DNA of 64,000 nucleotides from Psychrobacter glacincola (GTDB taxonomy: Bacteria; Pseudomonadota; Gammaproteobacteria; Pseudomonadales; Moraxellaceae): contig NZ_CAJGZK010000005.1 in NCBI RefSeq assembly GCF_904846215.1, positions 117,825-181,824 on the forward strand, read 5' to 3'. This document shows, in pieces, positions 10,921-53,008 of this stretch. The number at the start of each line of letters is the position of its first letter. The stretch's first letter is position 1. A program made the translations under genes and the position numbers. Below the pieces are notes generated by a model, which did no database searches, was not told the origin of the DNA, and saw only the letters and a list, made by a program, of their open reading frames with translations.

Positions 10921-11562
10921 ATGGCCCGTTATATTGGACCAAAACTCAAATTATCACGTCGTGAAGGCACTGACTTAGGTCTTAAGTCTGGTGTTAAACC
11001 ATACGACGTGAAAACGAAAAAATCGGCTCGTCCACCTGGTCAACATGGTGTTAGCCGTAACAAAAGCTCAGAGTACTCTTTACAGTTACGTGAAAAACAA
11101 AAAGTTAAGCGTATCTACGGTGTATTAGAGCGTCAGTTTGCAAACTACTATAAAGAAGCTGCTCGTAAGCGTGGCGCTACTGGTGAAAACTTGTTAGCAA
11201 TGCTTGAGAGCCGTCTAGATAACGTAGTATATCGTATGGGCTTTGGCTCTACGCGTGCTGAAGCACGTCAGTTAGTTAGCCATCGTACTGTTATGGTGAA
11301 AAAAGCTGGCCGTGATGAGTTTATTCGTGTGAATATTCCATCAATTCAGTTGCAAGATGGTGATGTCATCGCTATTCAAGAGAAGTCTCGCGAGCAATTA
11401 CGTATTAAGAACGCAATTGAACTGGCTACCCAACGTGGTATCCCAGAATGGCTAGATGTTGATCACAGCAAACTACAAGGCACGTTCAAAAAAGCGCCTG
11501 ATCGTATTGATCTACCTGCTGAAATCAACGAAAGCTTAATCGTTGAGCTATACTCTAAGTAA
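10921..11562 (+). CDS. rpsD: 30S ribosomal protein S4
   Basis: S4 nucleates 16S assembly and, in E. coli, autogenously represses the alpha operon. It is 213 residues (E. coli 206). It begins [19 protein letters not shown]. The S4 RNA-binding domain is clear ([20 protein letters not shown], then [12 protein letters not shown]). The N-terminal zinc-type cysteines of some homologues are absent. Confidence 0.98.
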
Positions 11563-11571
11563 GTAACGTAC

Positions 11572-11601
11572 TGCTCGATGCTGTTCACATGGCATTGAGC
11601 A
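11572..11601 (+). other. Hairpin between rpsD and rpoA
   Basis: TGCTCGATGC pairs with GCATTGAGCA (one G-T pair) around a 10-nt loop. No T-run follows, so it is more likely an mRNA processing or stability element than a terminator. Confidence 0.35.
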
Positions 11602-11643
11602 ATTAGCGTTAATTAAACCAGTTTAATAAATCGAGGTGACATC

Positions 11644-12651
11644 ATGATGCTAAATGCAACTGAGTTTCTAACGCCGAACGCCATCAACGTGGACACGGTT
11701 AATGAAACGATTGCGAAAGTCACGCTCGAACCGTTAGAACGCGGCTTTGGGCATACCTTGGGTAATGCCTTACGTCGCATCTTGTTATCTTCATTACCTG
11801 GTGCTGCAGTCATTGAAGCTGAGATTGATGGTGTTGACCATGAATACTCAACGCTTGAAGGACTACAAGAAGATGTGCTTGATTTGCTTTTGAACTTAAA
11901 AGGTTTAGCAATCACTCTTCATGACCAAAATGAAGTATTTTTGACCTTGGATAAACAAGGTCCAGGCACTATTACTGCTGCAGACATCACGTTACCGCAC
12001 AATGTAGACATCATCAATCCAGAATTGGTATTGGGTACATTGAGTGACCGTGGTCATCTAAAGATGCGTTTGCGCGTAGTAATGGGTCGTGGATATGAGC
12101 CAGCAAACCAGCGCCGTGAAGATGGTGATACTAAAGCGATTGGACGCTTAAAGCTTGATGCAAGTTTTAGTCCTGTGCTTCGTGTTGCTTATCAGGTTGA
12201 GAACGCACGTGTAGAACAACGTACCGATCTTGATCGTCTTATCATTGAGCTTGAAACTAATGGCACTATAGATCCAGAAGAAGCAATTCGTAAAGCAGCC
12301 ACTATTTTACAACAACAGATTTCTATCTTTGTTGACCTAGAAGCTGAAGAAGCGCCTGAGCCTGTGAAAGAAAAAGAAGAGGTTGATCCGGTGCTATTAC
12401 GCCCTGTGGACGATCTTGAACTAACGGTTCGCTCAGCCAACTGCTTAAAAGCTGAAAACATTTACTATATCGGTGATTTGGTACAGCGTTCAGAGACTGA
12501 ACTTCTAAAAACCCCAAATCTTGGTAAGAAATCATTAACAGAAATCAAAGACGTACTAGCGTCTAAAGATTTGGAGCTTGGTATGCGCCTAGATAACTGG
12601 CCACCAGCTGATTTACGTGTTGATGATCGCTTTTCTTATCGTAGCCGTTAA
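11644..12651 (+). CDS. rpoA: RNA polymerase alpha subunit
   Basis: Alpha dimerises to start RNA polymerase assembly, and its C-terminal domain binds UP elements and activators. It is 335 residues (E. coli 329). The N-terminal domain has [20 protein letters not shown]. After an acidic Glu/Pro linker ([15 protein letters not shown]) comes the C-terminal domain, with [19 protein letters not shown] and [21 protein letters not shown] precedes the ATG; a second ATG follows directly, so the start may be one codon later. Confidence 0.98.
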
Positions 12652-12670
12652 ACTTTAAGGATTTTTGACT

Positions 12671-13030
12671 ATGCGCCATCGTAAGAGTGGAGTCAAGCTG
12701 GGTCGTACCGGCAGTCATCGTAAGGCAATGTTTCAGAACATGACCAACTCATTATTTGAGCATGAACTGATCAAAACAACTTTACCAAAAGCAAAAGAGT
12801 TACGTCGCGTTGCTGAGCCATTGATCACTATGGCTAAAGAAGACAGCGTTGCTAACCGTCGCTTGGCATTTAGCCGTATGCGTAGCAAAGCTATGGTAGG
12901 CAAATTATTTGGTACTCTTGGTCCTCGTTACCAAGCTCGTCCAGGTGGTTATTTGCGTATCGTAAAATGCGGTCATCGTGATGGTGACAATGCGCCTATG
13001 GCTTATGTAGAATTGGTTGATCGCGACTAA
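12671..13030 (+). CDS. rplQ: 50S ribosomal protein L17
   Basis: L17 is a large-subunit assembly protein and the last gene of the alpha operon. From ATG 12671 it is 119 residues (E. coli 127). It begins [20 protein letters not shown] and holds [17 protein letters not shown] sequence (here [20 protein letters not shown]). An in-frame TTG two codons earlier is not needed. AAGGATT precedes the start. Confidence 0.97.
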
Positions 13031-13060
13031 TTTTATAATAACCAAAATATGTATGTAAAA

Positions 13061-13088
13061 GAGCTCCAATTCAATTGGAGCTTTTTTT
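13061..13088 (+). terminator. Alpha-operon terminator
   Basis: GAGCTCCAATT and CAATTGGAGC form a near-perfect stem followed by seven T. It ends the ribosomal superoperon. Confidence 0.85.
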
Positions 13089-13153
13089 CGTCTAAAGTAT
13101 TTGTATCAGTCATTATTAGGGTGAGTATTTGAAAAATTGTAATAAATTTCTAT

Positions 13154-13771
13154 TTATAATAATGAATCCACATCGCCAGCACCCTGCCGAACGATTTCTG
13201 GTTGGCTGCTGGTCATATCAACGATCGTTGTCAGTTTAGTGGTTTTGATACCAGCATTGATTAGCCCATCTATCTGATTGCCCAATAATTCTTCGATCTC
13301 GAAAGGGTCATCTAGTATATCCTCTCGGTTTGGCAATATTAATGAGCTGGTCAAAATAGGTTCATCCATTGCCTCTAACAACGCCTGAGCAATAGCATTA
13401 CTTGGAACACGAATACCAATGGTTTTTTTCTTGGCATGTGCCAGTTTCCTCGGTACATCTTTGGTCGCATTTAAAATAAAGGTAATAGGTGCGGGTGTAT
13501 GCGCTTTAAGCTGTTTAAATTGGACATTGTCTACTGCGGCGTAATTGGCAATCTCACTTAAATCACGACAAAGTAAGGTAAATTGATGCTTATCATCAAG
13601 CGCGCGTATTTGCTTAAGTTTTTCTAATGCATCCTTTGCCCCTAAGCGACAGCCAAAGGCATAACTGGTATCAGTCGGATAAATAATTAATTGATCCTTA
13701 CGTAACAATTCTGCTACTTGTTCAATCAGCCTCGGCTGTGGATTTTCTGGATGAATATAAAATACTTGCAT
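13154..13771 (-). CDS. YciO-type Sua5/YrdC family protein
   Basis: A single-domain, 205-residue protein of the YrdC/Sua5 fold, which in TsaC makes threonylcarbamoyl-AMP for tRNA t6A. Visible motifs are LIIYPTDTSYAFGCRLGAKD, IRALDDKHQFTLLCRDL (the dinucleotide/RNA-binding region), APITFILNATKDVP and KTIGIRVPSN. The HQFTLLCRDLSE version of the loop resembles the YciO branch rather than TsaC, so I do not assign t6A synthesis. It stands alone on the minus strand, with its 3' end facing rplQ across the terminator. Confidence 0.8.
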   Translation of the reverse strand: MQVFYIHPENPQPRLIEQVAELLRKDQLIIYPTDTSYAFGCRLGAKDALEKLKQIRALDDKHQFTLLCRDLSEIANYAAVDNVQFKQLKAHTPAPITFILNATKDVPRKLAHAKKKTIGIRVPSNAIAQALLEAMDEPILTSSLILPNREDILDDPFEIEELLGNQIDGLINAGIKTTKLTTIVDMTSSQPEIVRQGAGDVDSLL

Positions 13772-14014
13772 AATAAATCCTTATTTTATAATTATTAGAG
13801 TTTGGTTACTGGGGAAGTCGTAATAATAACGTTTTTAGTGTTGTAAGCTACTGATGTTATTTACGCTAAAATATCGTATTAAACATTAGTATAGCGCAAA
13901 GTAAATATAGTTTTATGAGCAAGCCGTTAATGTGAGTAGAGAATCGTTAACAATAGCCAGTGGTATAAGACGTTTCGATACGAGTAATAAAAGAGCTTAC
14001 ACGATTGGATTTAG

Positions 14015-14812
14015 TTAAGATAAAGCACAGAGAGCGAGTAGGGCTTGAAGCAAGGTTTTAGCGTCAGATGGCAAGGTATCTGGTTTAGTAATATATGTCT
14101 GAGCTTGTTGATAGACATCCTGAGCGAAGGTGCTGCTACTGGTATCAAAATCTGCATATAAATTGTCCTGTGATACTTGAAAAGGTCGTCCACAAGCTAA
14201 TGTAAGCAAACACTCTATAGCTTGTGGCTTAACCTCAACACGTTCAAATGCCTGCTGCTGAGCCGCTGAGCGTCCGTCGGCTGCATACCAGTAGCCAAAG
14301 TCAGGTAGCTGCCTACGTCGCTTACCTGCCACAAAAAAATGGCTACACTCATGCAGTGCACTGGCAAAAAATCCATGGGCAAACTCAATTCTTGCGGGTT
14401 GATTATCTTGGGCAGGGAAGTATTCGGGTTCGCCAGTGCTACGAACCAATATGACCTGTTTGCTAATAAATAAATGATTAAAGAGTTCGATAAGCCAGTC
14501 AGTCAATGCTTGCTCAATATCTTCAAACGACAATTCATCTTGTGAAGTAATACCGGTTAAAGTATTTTGAGTAACTTTACCTTCTTTGATAGGCTCAATG
14601 AACCCTTTAGAGGAATGAATCAAATAATTACTAGCGAGATATTGCCACTGTAATGACAGTTTTTTTAATGTGGCATCTGTCTCAACATTGCTACTGGGAT
14701 CATTAAGGTTTGTTTTTTGACTTTGCAATTCATTCAAACGTTGCAAGAAATCTTTGGCTTCAATAGAAGATAGTAAACTGGAAAAATCAGGAGAAGCGGT
14801 AGGCGATATCAT
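14015..14812 (-). CDS. epmC: EpmC/YfcM-like elongation factor P hydroxylase
   Basis: EpmC hydroxylates the modified lysine of elongation factor P. The segment HGFFASALHECSHFFVAG contains an HExxH-type metal site (HECSH). RRRQLPDFGYWYAADGRS, then a run through FERVEVKPQAIECLL, then GRPFQVSQDNL match the YfcM family in order. From ATG 14812 it is 265 residues, with a poorly conserved N-terminal half; a TTG at 14830 would add six residues, and neither start has a clear ribosome binding site. Sure of family, less of start. Confidence 0.82.
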   Translation of the reverse strand: MISPTASPDFSSLLSSIEAKDFLQRLNELQSQKTNLNDPSSNVETDATLKKLSLQWQYLASNYLIHSSKGFIEPIKEGKVTQNTLTGITSQDELSFEDIEQALTDWLIELFNHLFISKQVILVRSTGEPEYFPAQDNQPARIEFAHGFFASALHECSHFFVAGKRRRQLPDFGYWYAADGRSAAQQQAFERVEVKPQAIECLLTLACGRPFQVSQDNLYADFDTSSSTFAQDVYQQAQTYITKPDTLPSDAKTLLQALLALCALS

Positions 14813-31899: not shown

Positions 31900-32962
31900 G
31901 ATTCAACATCGAAGTGCAACGCACCCGAAGCTAGATTTTACCTCAAGCGGTGTTCTAAACCCTAGCACCTTTCTAGGTCGATTATTTAAACTATCTTCAA
32001 TCGACTGAACTAAGTGCCTGCATAGGTTATCTAGACGCATCGACTTAGGTAGAAACTGACGAATTAAACCATTGGTATTCTCATTCGTTCCACGCTCCCA
32101 AGAATGATAAGGCTGAGCAAAGTAAATATCAGCCTTCAACGCGGTTGCCATCGTTTCATGGTCAGCAAACTCTTTACCGTTGTCAAAGGTGATGCTTAAC
32201 GCCTGCTCACCTTTTAGCATGCCAATACAAGCTTGTGTGACAGCTTTTGCCTTACGATTGGGTAGCGCTTTGATCTTAGTCTCTCGAGTCGTTCTATCTA
32301 CTAAAGTAACCAGAACACCTTGATGTCCATGACCAACCACCGTATCTCCTTCGTAATCGCCCATACGAATGCGCGTATCAATGATACTAGGACGGTCATT
32401 GATATCACAGCGGTTCGCTATCTTTCCACGCCTATCATTGCCTTGCAGACGGCGTTTCCTATAGCGCTTTTGACATCTGAGGGCGTTGTGTAGATCACCC
32501 CCTGCCTTTTTGTCAGTATAGATGCGTTGGTATATCGATTCATGGCTTGGGACCTCTTCCCAACCCAGCATCCTCAGTCGCCCTGTGATTTGTTCAGGTG
32601 AGTAGTGCTTGCTGAGTAGATGCTCAATATAACACCAGCCAAAGCGGCTGATTTGTGCGCTATTTACAACTTTGCGCGCGTTTGCCAAACGATGGGCTTG
32701 TTTGGGGCGATAACCCCTTTGTCCTAGGTTTCGCCTTATCTCTCGACTCACCGTTGATTTATGACAGCCGATAATTCTAGCTATTTCACTCATGCCTTTT
32801 TTAGCTTGCAATAGCGCTGATATTTGATATCTTTGCTCTTGGGTAAGATGTGTATAGTGTCTCATAACGTTCTGATATGTAGGAGTTGAAGTTTGAAATG
32901 CAACACGGCACATCTTACTCTTCAACTCATTCTTTTAAAACGTTGCACTTCTTATTTGAATC
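31900..32962 (-). mobile_element. IS30-family insertion sequence
   Basis: 1063 bp. Imperfect 22-bp terminal inverted repeats lie at 31900-31921 and 32941-32962; the outer GATTCAA and inner GAAGTGCAACG blocks match, with a 4-5 bp mismatched middle. It contains one transposase gene on the minus strand. I see no certain target duplication. The right end lies directly before the ribosome binding site of the next gene. Confidence 0.88.
31903..32865 (-). CDS. IS30-family transposase
   Basis: 320 residues from ATG 32865 (MRHYTHLTQEQRYQISALLQ); the upstream in-frame extension runs into the inverted repeat. The N-terminal helix-turn-helix (EIARIIGCHKSTVSREIRRN) is typical of IS30. The DDE residues sit in MGDYEGDTVVG, ITFDNGKEFADHE and RGTNENTNGLIRQF. 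The frame is intact and probably functional. The stop lies inside the left inverted repeat. Confidence 0.94.
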   Translation of the reverse strand: MRHYTHLTQEQRYQISALLQAKKGMSEIARIIGCHKSTVSREIRRNLGQRGYRPKQAHRLANARKVVNSAQISRFGWCYIEHLLSKHYSPEQITGRLRMLGWEEVPSHESIYQRIYTDKKAGGDLHNALRCQKRYRKRRLQGNDRRGKIANRCDINDRPSIIDTRIRMGDYEGDTVVGHGHQGVLVTLVDRTTRETKIKALPNRKAKAVTQACIGMLKGEQALSITFDNGKEFADHETMATALKADIYFAQPYHSWERGTNENTNGLIRQFLPKSMRLDNLCRHLVQSIEDSLNNRPRKVLGFRTPLEVKSSFGCVALRC

Positions 32963-44586: not shown

Positions 44587-45338
44587 ATGGCCAGACAAGC
44601 ATTAACCGATAATCTCTGGGAGCAGCTACAAGAGACTATGGCACAACATGGTTGCTATCAAAAAGATAAGAACCGAGACGTGATGGAAGCCATTCTTTGG
44701 AAGCTCCGTACAGGCGCACCATGGCGTGACGTACCTGAAGAATTATGCCCGTGGAAAACCGCTTATAACCGTTTTAATCGCTGGTCAAAGACGGGTTTGT
44801 GGGAGAAATTTTTTTTAGCTTACGAAAAGAAATTGATACAGAATGGGTATTCGTCGATGGAAGTTATATACGCTGTCACCAGCATGCAAGTGGAGCTCGG
44901 CTTGGTGAAGATCGAGCAATTGGACAAAGCCGTGGTGGAGCAACTACAAAGATACACCTATCCTGTGATGCCGATGGATATACGCTCGATTTTAAAATCA
45001 CTGGAGGTGAGGTTCACGACAGTCAAGTTGCAGGTGAATTGATTGAGCTCATAGGGCAAGCGGACTACTTTATTGCTGATAAAGGCTATGATTCAGAAGT
45101 TATTAGAGACAAAGCTCGTACCCACGATATGGTACCTGTCATCCCTAAAAGAAAAAATGCCAAACAGCCTAATCCAGAATTTGATCGTTATTTATACAAG
45201 TTACGCCATTTAGTAGAAAATATGTTTGCGAGACTCAAGCATTTCCGTAGCATCGCGACTCGCTACGAGAAGTTGGCTCGTAATTTTAAGTCTATGCTTT
45301 ACCTAGCGTGCACTATTATTCATTACAAGATGAATTGA
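44587..45338 (+). CDS. IS5-family transposase, two frames joined by a -1 shift
   Basis: The first frame (from ATG 44587, stop 45042) encodes the N-terminal DUF4096-like part (WKLRTGAPWRDVPEELCPW). The catalytic part is in the -1 frame (about 44799-45338), with Asp in VFVDGSYIRCHQHA, Asp in FIADKGYDSEVIRD and Glu in RHLVENMFARLKHFR. They meet at a run of eight T (44809-44816), the type of slippery site used for programmed -1 frameshifting in this IS group. I read it as functional, not a pseudogene. Confidence 0.88.
44809..44816 (+). promoter_or_regulatory. Probable programmed -1 frameshift site
   Basis: T8 between AAA and AGC. A slip of one base back changes KFFLAYEK to KFFSLRKE, entering the frame of the DDE catalytic domain. 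Confidence 0.7.
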
Positions 45339-50155: not shown

Positions 50156-50190
50156 AAAACCCCGATAGGCTGAGCTTATCGGGGTTTTTT
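50156..50190 (+). terminator. groEL terminator
   Basis: AAAACCCCGATA and TATCGGGGTTTT stem with an 8-nt loop and T6, about 120 nt after the groEL stop. A small hairpin (TGTAC-TTTAT-GTACA) precedes it. Confidence 0.88.
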
Positions 50191-50203: not shown

Positions 50204-51643
50204 TTAACGTATTGTTCTTCTAATAGATTCGATAGTTGACAATGTAATATCTATATTTTCTATGTCACCTATATCTCTAGAAATGGATAATGAATCATTA
50301 AGGTGCTTTAAAGCGATATCGAAGTTTCCTTGCTCAAAATAGATAGATGAAATATTATATAATACTGTACTTAAAAGAACTTTATTGCCTAATTCTTCAC
50401 ATATTTTTAAAGCTTTTTTTAAGTGTTTAAGTGCTAAATCTTTATTGCCTTTATTATAATACACACTGGCTATACCATTGAAAGAATGACTTATACCTAC
50501 TTTGTTTCCAGTATCTTGGCTAATTTTTAAAGCTTTATTCATGTAGTCTAAAGCTTTGTCATACTCTCCAGTTTTATAATATATACCTCCTGTATTAATA
50601 TAACGTGTACTCAGAGCTACATCATCGTCGATTTTAGCATCAATTTTTAAAGATTTTTCTAGTTCCTCTAGTGCTTTCTTATAATCACCACGGGCTATAT
50701 AAATTAACGATATATTATTGGATATTGCTCCATTGTCACTTATAAAATTTAAGCTCTCTCCTAATCTTTGAGCTTCCATAAGACAATCTAATGCTTTATC
50801 GTAGTTTCCTTGGGCTTGATAAACTTGAGAAATATTACTTAGAATAGTTTGTTCAGCTACCTGATTATTCATTTTAATAACAATTTGCATTGCATCTTTC
50901 CAGTGCATTAAAGCTTCATCCAAACGTCCTATTGAAAAAAATAAGTCTGCCATTAAAGTTCTTATATAGGCTTGATCATTTAGTGTAGTCGCTTCATCTA
51001 GTAATGCTCTAAGGGACTTCAATTGAGATTCTTTTTCTGTAGAAGTTTGATAATGCTGAGAAAGGATTTTAGAGTCTGGGTGCTTGAGTGAGTTATATTG
51101 ATTGAAAGCAGCAAGTTTTTTCTGATTTAAATTACTATCGAAATGATAGATATCGCTATACCAATCATAAAAATCACTAGCTTGGGTTGCAAGCAATTCT
51201 AATGCGTAACTTGGCAACCAAAATATAATAGGAACTTTAAGCGCTTGAAAATAGCTTCTACGCCAGTTTAACTCGCTTACGGTTTTGATAATTTGTTCAT
51301 CAGAGCCTGTAGGTAATAGTTGTTCAAGACCAATTATATTGATGGCATCTAATGGTTGTTTAGACTTTGCGTTTTGATACTTATTTTTCTGTTTATGTAC
51401 CCACTCATCTATATGTATACCTTCGTTTTTCGGATAATCAGCAGTATCAAGGGTAAGTAAGTTTAGATTATCTATATTGTCAAGTTCACCAATCAACTGC
51501 CTGCGTAAATTAGGTAAATTGCACTCGACAAAATACAAAGCATATTCGTTTTCAGAACGCCTTATATTGCGCCTAATACGTTGAAGAACTTCTATTTGTT
51601 CTTCAGTAATAGGATTGTTTATTGAAAAATCTAAAGTATCCAT
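50204..51643 (-). CDS. TPR protein with degenerate NTPase-like N-terminus
   Basis: 479 residues, second gene of a two-gene unit. Residues about 225-460 hold six TPRs at a regular 40-residue period (for example DNGAISNNISLIYIARGDYK then KALEELEKSLKIDAKI), the spacing of Rap/LGN-like TPRs. Residues 1-170 resemble an NTPase fold that has lost its P-loop: IRRNIRRS aligns with IRRSIERS of the upstream ATPase, NIIGLEQLL sits where Walker B would be, and VPIIFWLPSYALELLATQAS follows. Start ATG 51643 lacks a clear ribosome binding site. More A/T-rich than neighbours. Function unknown. Confidence 0.8.
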   Translation of the reverse strand: MDTLDFSINNPITEEQIEVLQRIRRNIRRSENEYALYFVECNLPNLRRQLIGELDNIDNLNLLTLDTADYPKNEGIHIDEWVHKQKNKYQNAKSKQPLDAINIIGLEQLLPTGSDEQIIKTVSELNWRRSYFQALKVPIIFWLPSYALELLATQASDFYDWYSDIYHFDSNLNQKKLAAFNQYNSLKHPDSKILSQHYQTSTEKESQLKSLRALLDEATTLNDQAYIRTLMADLFFSIGRLDEALMHWKDAMQIVIKMNNQVAEQTILSNISQVYQAQGNYDKALDCLMEAQRLGESLNFISDNGAISNNISLIYIARGDYKKALEELEKSLKIDAKIDDDVALSTRYINTGGIYYKTGEYDKALDYMNKALKISQDTGNKVGISHSFNGIASVYYNKGNKDLALKHLKKALKICEELGNKVLLSTVLYNISSIYFEQGNFDIALKHLNDSLSISRDIGDIENIDITLSTIESIRRTIR

Positions 51644-51685
51644 AAGTAAAATTCGCTACTAAGTCGTGCCAGAACTATTAAAGTT

Positions 51686-53008
51686 CTAAGTATTAGCCGC
51701 TGTTAGATTGTTTATCTCATCCATAACCCATCCGATCTCTAAACAAGCGGGGTGTAGTTTGGCGGAACGTTTGCCGTTCTCGTATTCAAGTATAACTCGG
51801 TTAAGCAGTAATTGATTTGTTCTCTCATCGTCTGGATTAACTAACTCGGTTCTATAGACTCTTTCTAAAATGGGAATATCGCTTGGTTTCAACAATCTAT
51901 CGTATTCTCTAGTCAATCTAGAGACTGCATATTTTACTTCTTTAGCAGATACTTGAGTTTCGTCAGTATCACAAGACAATCTAATAAGACGCATCAAATC
52001 ACGTACTACACCACCAGAACTTTCAATCAACATATCAACAAGCGTAGGGTCAGAAAATACCGCTTCTATATCAACACGTTTTTGTACCAAATCTTTAAGA
52101 GTAGATTTACCAGCATTATTTAGCCTTACCATTGGTAAAATGTAGACGTTTTCATAGTCGTTTTGCAGATTACTAATAAAGAACAAGCTTATTGGGGTGG
52201 TGTAGACCACATGAGATTGTAGTGATAACAATTGCTCAGCATGTTGAACAAAAAGCTGAGTATGACTATCTGACTGATTATTCATTAACGAAAAGGTTCG
52301 ATAGTGCATTTTTTCGAGACCATCGACAATAATAACTATGTCTTTATAGTTATTCTTCTGAATAGCAATACGGACACTAATTAAGAATTGATTTATCTTT
52401 CTAATAAAGTCTGATGCTTTCTTTTCAATATTTTCACGTATTATGTGGCGTTGGCTTTGACTATGCTTAATGTCTCCAGTCAAATTACCGAATAGCTTCA
52501 ATATAGAAGGTATGCCTACATTAACTTCTATACCTGCACTAGCTTTACCGTCTATTTGCTTCTCTACAGTCGATTCTGCATATGCTTCTTGAGTGACCCA
52601 GTTATGGATTTCTTTTATAGCGTCATTATCAATGTTGATATTACTTTCTTGCAAAGATTTGCTAGTTGCATCAACCATTGCTAGAAAAATATCAATATAG
52701 CTAATATCTGCCAAATCTAAAGCGTCGCCTACATCGAAATAAACACATAAATATTGGTCTTGTTCTAATCTTTGCTTAAGTCTAAATAGTTCAGTTGTCT
52801 TGCCTGATCCTCGGTGTCCACTTATTAAATAAGTACAGGTATTATCGTCTGAGCGCTCAATACTACGACGAATCGTGCTAATAATCTTTATGTTCTCTCC
52901 TCTTACTTCTGACAAATCTATATAACGATTATCATTAGCAGGAAGAGCGTAATCAGGATTACATTGCTTGTATGCATCAACGACATTGGTTGCTGGCGAG
53001 ATAGTCAT
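51686..53008 (-). CDS. P-loop (AAA/STAND-like) ATPase
   Basis: 440 residues, first gene of the unit, 42 nt before the TPR gene. Walker A is GHRGSGKT (64-71), Walker B IVIIVDGLEK (224-233) with an Asp and a Glu, then a sensor-like strand VVYTTPI (267-273). A helix-rich region with GGVVRDLMRLIRLS (332-345) and a probable winged helix (ILEYENGKRSAKLHPACLEI) end the protein. No transmembrane or nuclease domain is visible. The fold is like Cdc6/STAND regulators that switch by nucleotide binding. AGG lies 7 nt before the ATG. Specific role unknown. Confidence 0.8.
   Translation of the reverse strand: MTISPATNVVDAYKQCNPDYALPANDNRYIDLSEVRGENIKIISTIRRSIERSDDNTCTYLISGHRGSGKTTELFRLKQRLEQDQYLCVYFDVGDALDLADISYIDIFLAMVDATSKSLQESNINIDNDAIKEIHNWVTQEAYAESTVEKQIDGKASAGIEVNVGIPSILKLFGNLTGDIKHSQSQRHIIRENIEKKASDFIRKINQFLISVRIAIQKNNYKDIVIIVDGLEKMHYRTFSLMNNQSDSHTQLFVQHAEQLLSLQSHVVYTTPISLFFISNLQNDYENVYILPMVRLNNAGKSTLKDLVQKRVDIEAVFSDPTLVDMLIESSGGVVRDLMRLIRLSCDTDETQVSAKEVKYAVSRLTREYDRLLKPSDIPILERVYRTELVNPDDERTNQLLLNRVILEYENGKRSAKLHPACLEIGWVMDEINNLTAANT

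Follow-up and report, generated by a model that had tools for sequence, protein, structure and literature searches.

A stretch of 64,000 nucleotides (nt) of Psychrobacter glacincola DNA (contig NZ_CAJGZK010000005.1; referred to as the window) was analysed for a two-gene cassette that lies between groEL and yaaA. The first-pass annotation of this DNA had described an intact Walker A/B ATPase gene and a gene with six tetratricopeptide repeats (TPRs), 42 nt apart on the minus strand. Both were present as described, and a check of the reading frames found them intact. The cassette comes after yaaA on the minus strand and is convergent with groEL. It had also been called richer in A/T than its flanks, which was confirmed: the GC content was 0.32–0.35 at 50–53 kb and 0.41–0.47 in the flanking 2 kb on each side. 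Other A/T-rich stretches also occur in the window. The features of the cassette are as follows.

51686..53008, minus strand: ATPase gene, 440 amino acids (open reading frame list, conservation, AlphaFold2 model, fold matches)
52793..52819, minus strand: Walker A motif of the ATPase, GHRGSGKTT, residues 64–72 (sequence and conservation)
52313..52339, minus strand: Walker B motif of the ATPase, IVIIVDGLE, residues 224–232 (sequence, conservation; residues 224–229 form a strand in the model)
51986..52015, minus strand: GGVVRDLMRL in the helical domain of the ATPase, residues 332–341 (conservation)
50204..51643, minus strand: partner (TPR) gene, 479 amino acids (open reading frame list, Pfam, AlphaFold2 model)
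51134..51643, minus strand: N-terminal domain (N-domain) of the partner, residues 1–170, without a Walker A motif (position downstream of the ATPase in the loci described below; model)
50270..50983, minus strand: six TPRs of the partner, residues 221–458, in 40-residue units (Pfam, model, repeats spaced by 120 nt)

An alignment of the ATPase (A1) was scanned over one genome per species, and the best 80 of at least 461 confirmed relatives were used. These loci belonged to Pseudomonadota, Cyanobacteriota, Acidobacteriota, Chloroflexota, Planctomycetota, Methanobacteriota, and other phyla. Wherever there was room downstream (75 of 75 loci), the ATPase gene was directly followed by one encoding the same N-domain of about 170 residues; 71 of these were found directly and four on inspection (L064, L092, L098, L103), while five loci lie at a contig edge or within 376 nt of one (L035, L041, L046, L054, L102). 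To build a profile, 64 of the 71 N-domains were aligned with that of the window (alignment A3), seven cyanobacterial ones being omitted. This profile recovered all 75 partners at E ≤ 1e-5, 11 of them from outside the alignment and all seven omitted ones included. The two genes overlapped in 66 of 71 loci, 61 of them by 4–50 nt, and the widest gap was about 350 nt (L098).

As the 80 loci were the best matches of a pattern scan, 369 evenly drawn Gammaproteobacteria genomes served for a second test. The ATPase was found in eight of them (E ≤ 1e-10), and the partner N-domain in the same eight (E ≤ 1e-6), a coincidence with a chance of about 1e-16 if the genomes are assumed to be independent. Each of the ten partner matches shared its contig and strand with an ATPase match no more than about 1 kb away. 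Moreover, pairwise distances of the ATPase and of the partner N-domain were correlated (r = 0.96 for 68 pairs; the best of 2000 permutations gave 0.26). Shared presence, adjacency, and correlated distances show that the two genes travel as one unit. The pair is a conserved two-gene unit in bacteria and archaea, and its members were never apart in the sampled loci, which answers the check on co-occurrence of homologues proposed in the first-pass annotation. The ATPase tree required 16 changes of phylum label, the minimum possible being 10; this is in keeping with transfer, though paralogy and mis-binned contigs may also raise the count.

In the ATPase, both the Walker A and Walker B motifs are intact. 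Residues G64, H65, R66, G67, G69, K70, T72, D229, and G230 were invariant across 40 aligned homologues, and V225 and E232 nearly so. G332, G333, R336, L338, and L341 were also invariant; they belong to the GGVVRDLMRL segment, which we take to be a sensor-2-like motif. Walker A lay within the first 120 residues in 72 of 74 loci and further in for the other two. In the AlphaFold2 model (predicted local distance difference test score, pLDDT, 84.7), a nucleotide-binding domain (about residues 30–295) is followed by a helical domain (298–345) and a winged-helix-like domain (355–439). Over most of the chain, the model matched PABY2304, SSO1545, CED-4, and RPP1. The ATPase is thus predicted to have the layout common to ORC proteins and signal transduction ATPases with numerous domains (STAND). 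No sensor repeats were seen on this chain by sequence, Pfam, or model, the TPRs being on the partner, and a PDB sequence search with the ATPase profile gave nothing convincing. It may be noted that many of the closest Psychrobacter-type relatives have an ATPase of 449 amino acids, with an extra C-terminal tail.

The TPRs of the partner were well supported in Pfam (TPR_12, E 4.5e-41; TPR_MalT, 69 bits, the cut-off being 45). The AlphaFold2 model of this protein (pLDDT 90.1; predicted template modelling score 0.88) has six 40-residue TPR hairpins with an extra helix at each end. In a fold search, this predicted superhelix matched domain III of MalT and is MalT/Rap-like. The fold matches of the whole chain were filled by the TPRs; they included no relative of the N-domain but carried little information on this domain, which is modelled as an alpha/beta domain with strands alternating with helices. 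A Walker A motif was present in the first 200 residues of the partner in none of the 75 loci. Since the N-domain is constant across partners, this conserved domain probably couples the partner to the ATPase, and so the sensor chain to the switch chain.

What follows the N-domain is variable. In an alignment of 70 of 72 downstream genes and that of the window (A2; the short fragments L081 and L082 were omitted), 67 of 71 rows matched TPR_12 (E ≤ 0.01), the misses including L041, an ATPase fragment. When ten partners were scanned singly against Pfam, eight had TPR matches, and L071 had no Pfam match. The L075 partner (11289–14099) joined the N-domain to NNH1 and NACHT, with no TPR match; that of L076 (2436–5039) joined it to NB-ARC and TPR; and that of L084 (2561–4090) joined it to a SpoIIE phosphatase domain, its TPR match being below the cut-off. 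With such fusions, the N-domain looks like a portable adaptor.

The TPR part itself differs in length. Cyanobacterial homologues clustered at 444, 484, 524, and 564 amino acids and at one residue more. Among 120 listed homologues, 52 had a length of 4 or 5 modulo 40, where 6 would be expected for an even spread; as these proteins are related, the count is descriptive only. One Psychrobacter-type partner homologue has 519 residues against the 479 of the window, a difference of 40, and others differ by other amounts. Tandem DNA repeats of 120 nt were found in L034 (12034–12640; 5.1 copies at 87%) and L088 (7888–8893; 8.4 copies at 81%), and such arrays might allow the number of repeats to change fast. 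In the window, the copies spaced by 120 nt are 61–71% identical, having diverged so far that Tandem Repeats Finder did not report them. Among 19 close homologues, the mean identity was 82% for the N-domain and 69% for the TPR part. Compared with Psychrobacter sp. APC 3281, the ratio of nonsynonymous to synonymous substitution rates was 0.10 for both the ATPase and the partner N-domain and 0.18 for the TPR part; hence, both genes are under purifying selection.

We lean, by a small degree, towards the view that the pair is one ATP-driven sensing switch, i.e., a receptor of the STAND or nucleotide-binding leucine-rich-repeat (NLR) type split over two proteins. By analogy with LypA/LypB and nSTAND2 (see below), the two proteins would form a mixed oligomer, with the N-domain of the partner docked on the active ATPase. 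The TPR superhelix would bind a ligand, and this binding may release the ATPase, letting it exchange nucleotide and assemble. The assembly could then display the TPR arms and recruit a partner protein. A split NLR had been proposed in the first-pass annotation; the likeness of the two separate chains to an NLR/MalT switch and a MalT/Rap-like TPR sensor is supported, and the P-loop-less alpha/beta N-domain of the partner had been missed. The output of the switch is not visible: Pfam, PADLOC, and NCBIfam searches showed no recognisable effector domain on the two chains.

Several observations weigh against the split-receptor view. The conservation of Walker A in the 80-locus set is not independent, the loci having been chosen partly by a Walker A pattern. 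TnsC and Cdc6/Orc1 matched the ATPase model as well as STAND proteins did, and therefore a role as a DNA-bound AAA+ protein fits the ATPase too. The ATPase would then be an ATP-dependent transcription or DNA-bound regulator (like ORC/Cdc6, TnsC, or MalT) and the TPR protein a ligand-sensing regulator. We regard this as unlikely: a winged-helix domain is a usual part of STAND proteins that do not bind DNA, and no constant target gene was seen among 108 immediate neighbours of the pair. The relation between the two chains is a further point. When the ATPase and partner N-domain profiles were aligned with hhalign, the probability was 1.4% over 22 columns. In another comparison it was 1.9% (E 0.025, 62 columns), and another segment of this ATPase, used as a control, gave 1.2% (E 0.042); global mode showed no signal (0.17%; control, 0.16%). 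These alignments were too weak to serve as stand-alone evidence and were set aside as such.

Scores so close to the control are what one would expect if the N-domain were an unrelated alpha/beta adaptor instead of an eroded P-loop domain, the pair still being an ATPase with a TPR adaptor. It also fits this alternative that no Pfam family was listed on the N-domain of the window's partner, and that a PDB sequence search with the N-domain profile gave nothing convincing. On the other hand, the domain has five strands alternating with helices. Its third strand bears a GLE-like motif in the place of Walker B of the ATPase, and a strand that ends in P corresponds to the one after Walker B. We consider an unrelated adaptor possible, though not probable. 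An eroded STAND domain is weakly supported by the predicted order of fold elements, which is that of an NTPase core, the profile matches being marginal at best.

The pair had been suggested to be accessory, as it sits between conserved genes, and this was borne out. A search of 145 genomes, the window's own included, matched the ATPase in two: its own genome, and a weak partial match (E 7.4e-4, 27% identity over residues 48–184) in a 684-residue frame. Of 20 stretches taken downstream of yaaA in relatives, 18 reached groEL, and neither cassette gene was present in any of the 20. Between the aligned ends of groEL and yaaA, the shortest gap measured 104 nt and the longest about 6.9 kb. Seven of the 18 gaps held an Lrp-type regulator and a transporter gene, and others a gene of about 550 codons or small open reading frames. 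The names of these gap genes are those we presume from their sequences, except for the Lrp/AsnC gene, a copy of which in APC 3281 was matched in a Pfam search. Thus, the pair is accessory (one genome of 145, apart from the weak partial match). Homologues occurring unlinked, conservation in all relatives as part of a housekeeping pathway, and the lack of a joint distribution had been named beforehand as findings that would speak against the proposal; they were looked for and not found in our samples.

In Psychrobacter sp. APC 3281 (L033), the pair lies on the same side of groEL as in the window, with the Lrp and transporter genes between the pair and yaaA. A GroEL-linked chaperone function might be read from groEL adjoining the pair in both genomes. 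Among the 80 loci, whose flanks vary (up to 10 kb a side), groEL, groES, and yaaA were found only in L033, and the groEL–yaaA gap is variable in the genus, with other cargo. With groEL in one of 80 loci, this explanation is extremely improbable and was rejected.

An inverted repeat resembling a terminator lies between the convergent groEL and the cassette.

50156..50188, no strand assigned: terminator-like inverted repeat

It matches sequence in the groEL–yaaA gaps of relatives without the cassette; hence, the terminator on the groEL side is the older element, and the cassette is placed between it and yaaA. A consensus scan did not flag this repeat and was uninformative for both terminator-like sites (one, compared with 1.5 in shuffled sequence) and promoter-like sites (19, compared with a shuffled mean of 13.0, standard deviation 4.2), and an Rfam search around the locus gave no match. 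In L121, L123, L124, L125, L128, L131, and L033, the groEL–yaaA gap held additional copies of the 3′ end of yaaA, roughly 30 to 61 codons long, about 2 kb from the full yaaA and beyond a gene of about 555 codons; G009 had one further short copy. It looks as if a segment was inserted at the yaaA 3′ end, duplicating that end. No extra copy was seen in the window. Elsewhere in the window, there are two overlapping transposase-like frames at 44587–45338, presumably a frameshifted gene of the IS5 type of insertion sequence, and a transposase-like open reading frame at 31903–32925, which we take to be IS30-like.

The immediate neighbours of the pair were surveyed in a set (A5) of 108 out of 111; groEL of L033 and two partner reading frames were left out, and L041, L064, and L092 were skipped. 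There was no constant third gene, no Pfam family (E ≤ 1e-8) occurring in more than three of the 108. Likewise, no PADLOC family (E ≤ 1e-10) occurred in more than three of them, among the 25 of 90 families listed; the matches were PD_DExK (3), PycC (2), single type II restriction and methylase matches, and others. The enrichment near defence genes that was to be looked for was not supported, and since the survey had no matched control, the claim is limited to there being no recurring defence family.

These results bear on the possibility that the pair is an antiphage or anti-invader system, in which the TPR part recognises an invader protein and the ATPase triggers a growth block or recruits a host effector. 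Its patchy, accessory occurrence would suit such a role, and so would a STAND-type ATPase with MalT-like TPRs, a combination known from Avs. ATPase relatives (24–28% identity) were found on nine plasmid records, three of them conjugative, and the number of TPRs differs by whole units. The P-loop region of the ATPase gave weak matches to PADLOC PDC-S20 (E 4.7e-7) and NCBIfam DS41_1 (E 5.7e-5); no literature on PDC-S20 was found. A published two-gene STAND system with one active and one eroded protein has been predicted to be a counter-invader system in the text of PMC8195603. Against this stand the neighbour survey, the finding of no ATPase relatives in phages or viral contigs, the lack of a recognised effector domain in either protein, and a DS41_1 score of 22.3 bits against a cut-off of 370. 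An antiphage function is therefore a possible but doubtful explanation.

Returning to the split receptor, its fullest form would be an unnamed, phylum-crossing split-NLR immune switch of bacteria and archaea. In it, an active ATPase of the STAND type would form a mixed ring with a pseudo-ATPase that lacks a P-loop. The pseudo-ATPase would bear a swappable, rapidly expanding TPR sensor of antigens that varies in steps of one whole repeat unit or more. We put this forward tentatively, and it is rather unlikely to hold in all its parts. If the split-receptor view is right, NLR-type receptors divided into a switch chain and a sensor chain would be widespread in prokaryotes, archaea included. The constant P-loop-less N-domain would explain how one kind of ATPase is coupled to many tails, and new specificities could arise simply through differences of whole TPR units.

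NLR-like STAND receptors and MalT are single chains. They share with the pair a switch of nucleotide-binding, helical, and winged-helix domains and a MalT-like TPR sensor; the pair differs in having two chains, the sensor chain with its own P-loop-less N-domain, and no recognised effector domain. Avs proteins use a P-loop ATPase in defence, and Avs/AVAST carry an N-terminal effector, a STAND module, and a C-terminal sensor on one chain, a layout not seen for the pair by sequence, Pfam, or PADLOC. DS-41 of DefensePredictor, as described in PMC13092281, also has a P-loop ATPase in defence; membership of the pair was rejected on the DS41_1 score given above, and the sole DS41_1 locus found had no partner N-domain.

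The MoxR and vWA genes of the iSTAND ternary system, as outlined in PMC7159879, are absent at the locus, where only groEL and yaaA flank the pair. RcbAB (PMC12282931) is a two-gene TPR operon, and the word ATPase occurs nowhere in the main text of that paper. Diversity-generating retroelements acting on STAND sensors were taken up as a subject through PMC10907252. In the account of PMC7439463, BcsE has a predicted RecA-like N-domain serving self-assembly and binds the ATPase BcsQ; this system differs in its role, cellulose secretion, and in its class of ATPase (SIMIBI). In the LypABC/CARD-NLR system, according to the text of PMC13236601, NLR-like LypB needs its own Walker A and B motifs and works with LypA, whose ATPase domain lacks conserved Walker A/B residues. 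LypABC differs from the pair in having three genes, with peptidase and CARD-like domains.

A literature search, mostly of listings, abstracts, and passages, yielded no paper recognised as describing the ATPase and partner pair. The nearest published idea is the nSTAND2 two-gene system (eLife 2021, PMC8195603), a mobile operon described there as a predicted counter-invader system. Both its proteins have STAND modules, one with eroded nucleotide-binding motifs and variable domains, and a mixed ring is predicted. The eroded protein mostly carries GT4 or HEPN, whereas the partner here mostly carries TPRs; neither GT4 nor HEPN was seen on the ten partners scanned singly or among the 25 of 161 families listed. 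The comparison is one of descriptions, the N-domain being only weakly supported as an eroded STAND domain. As in nSTAND2, the pair is a two-gene operon in which one protein has the NTPase motifs and the other is without them.
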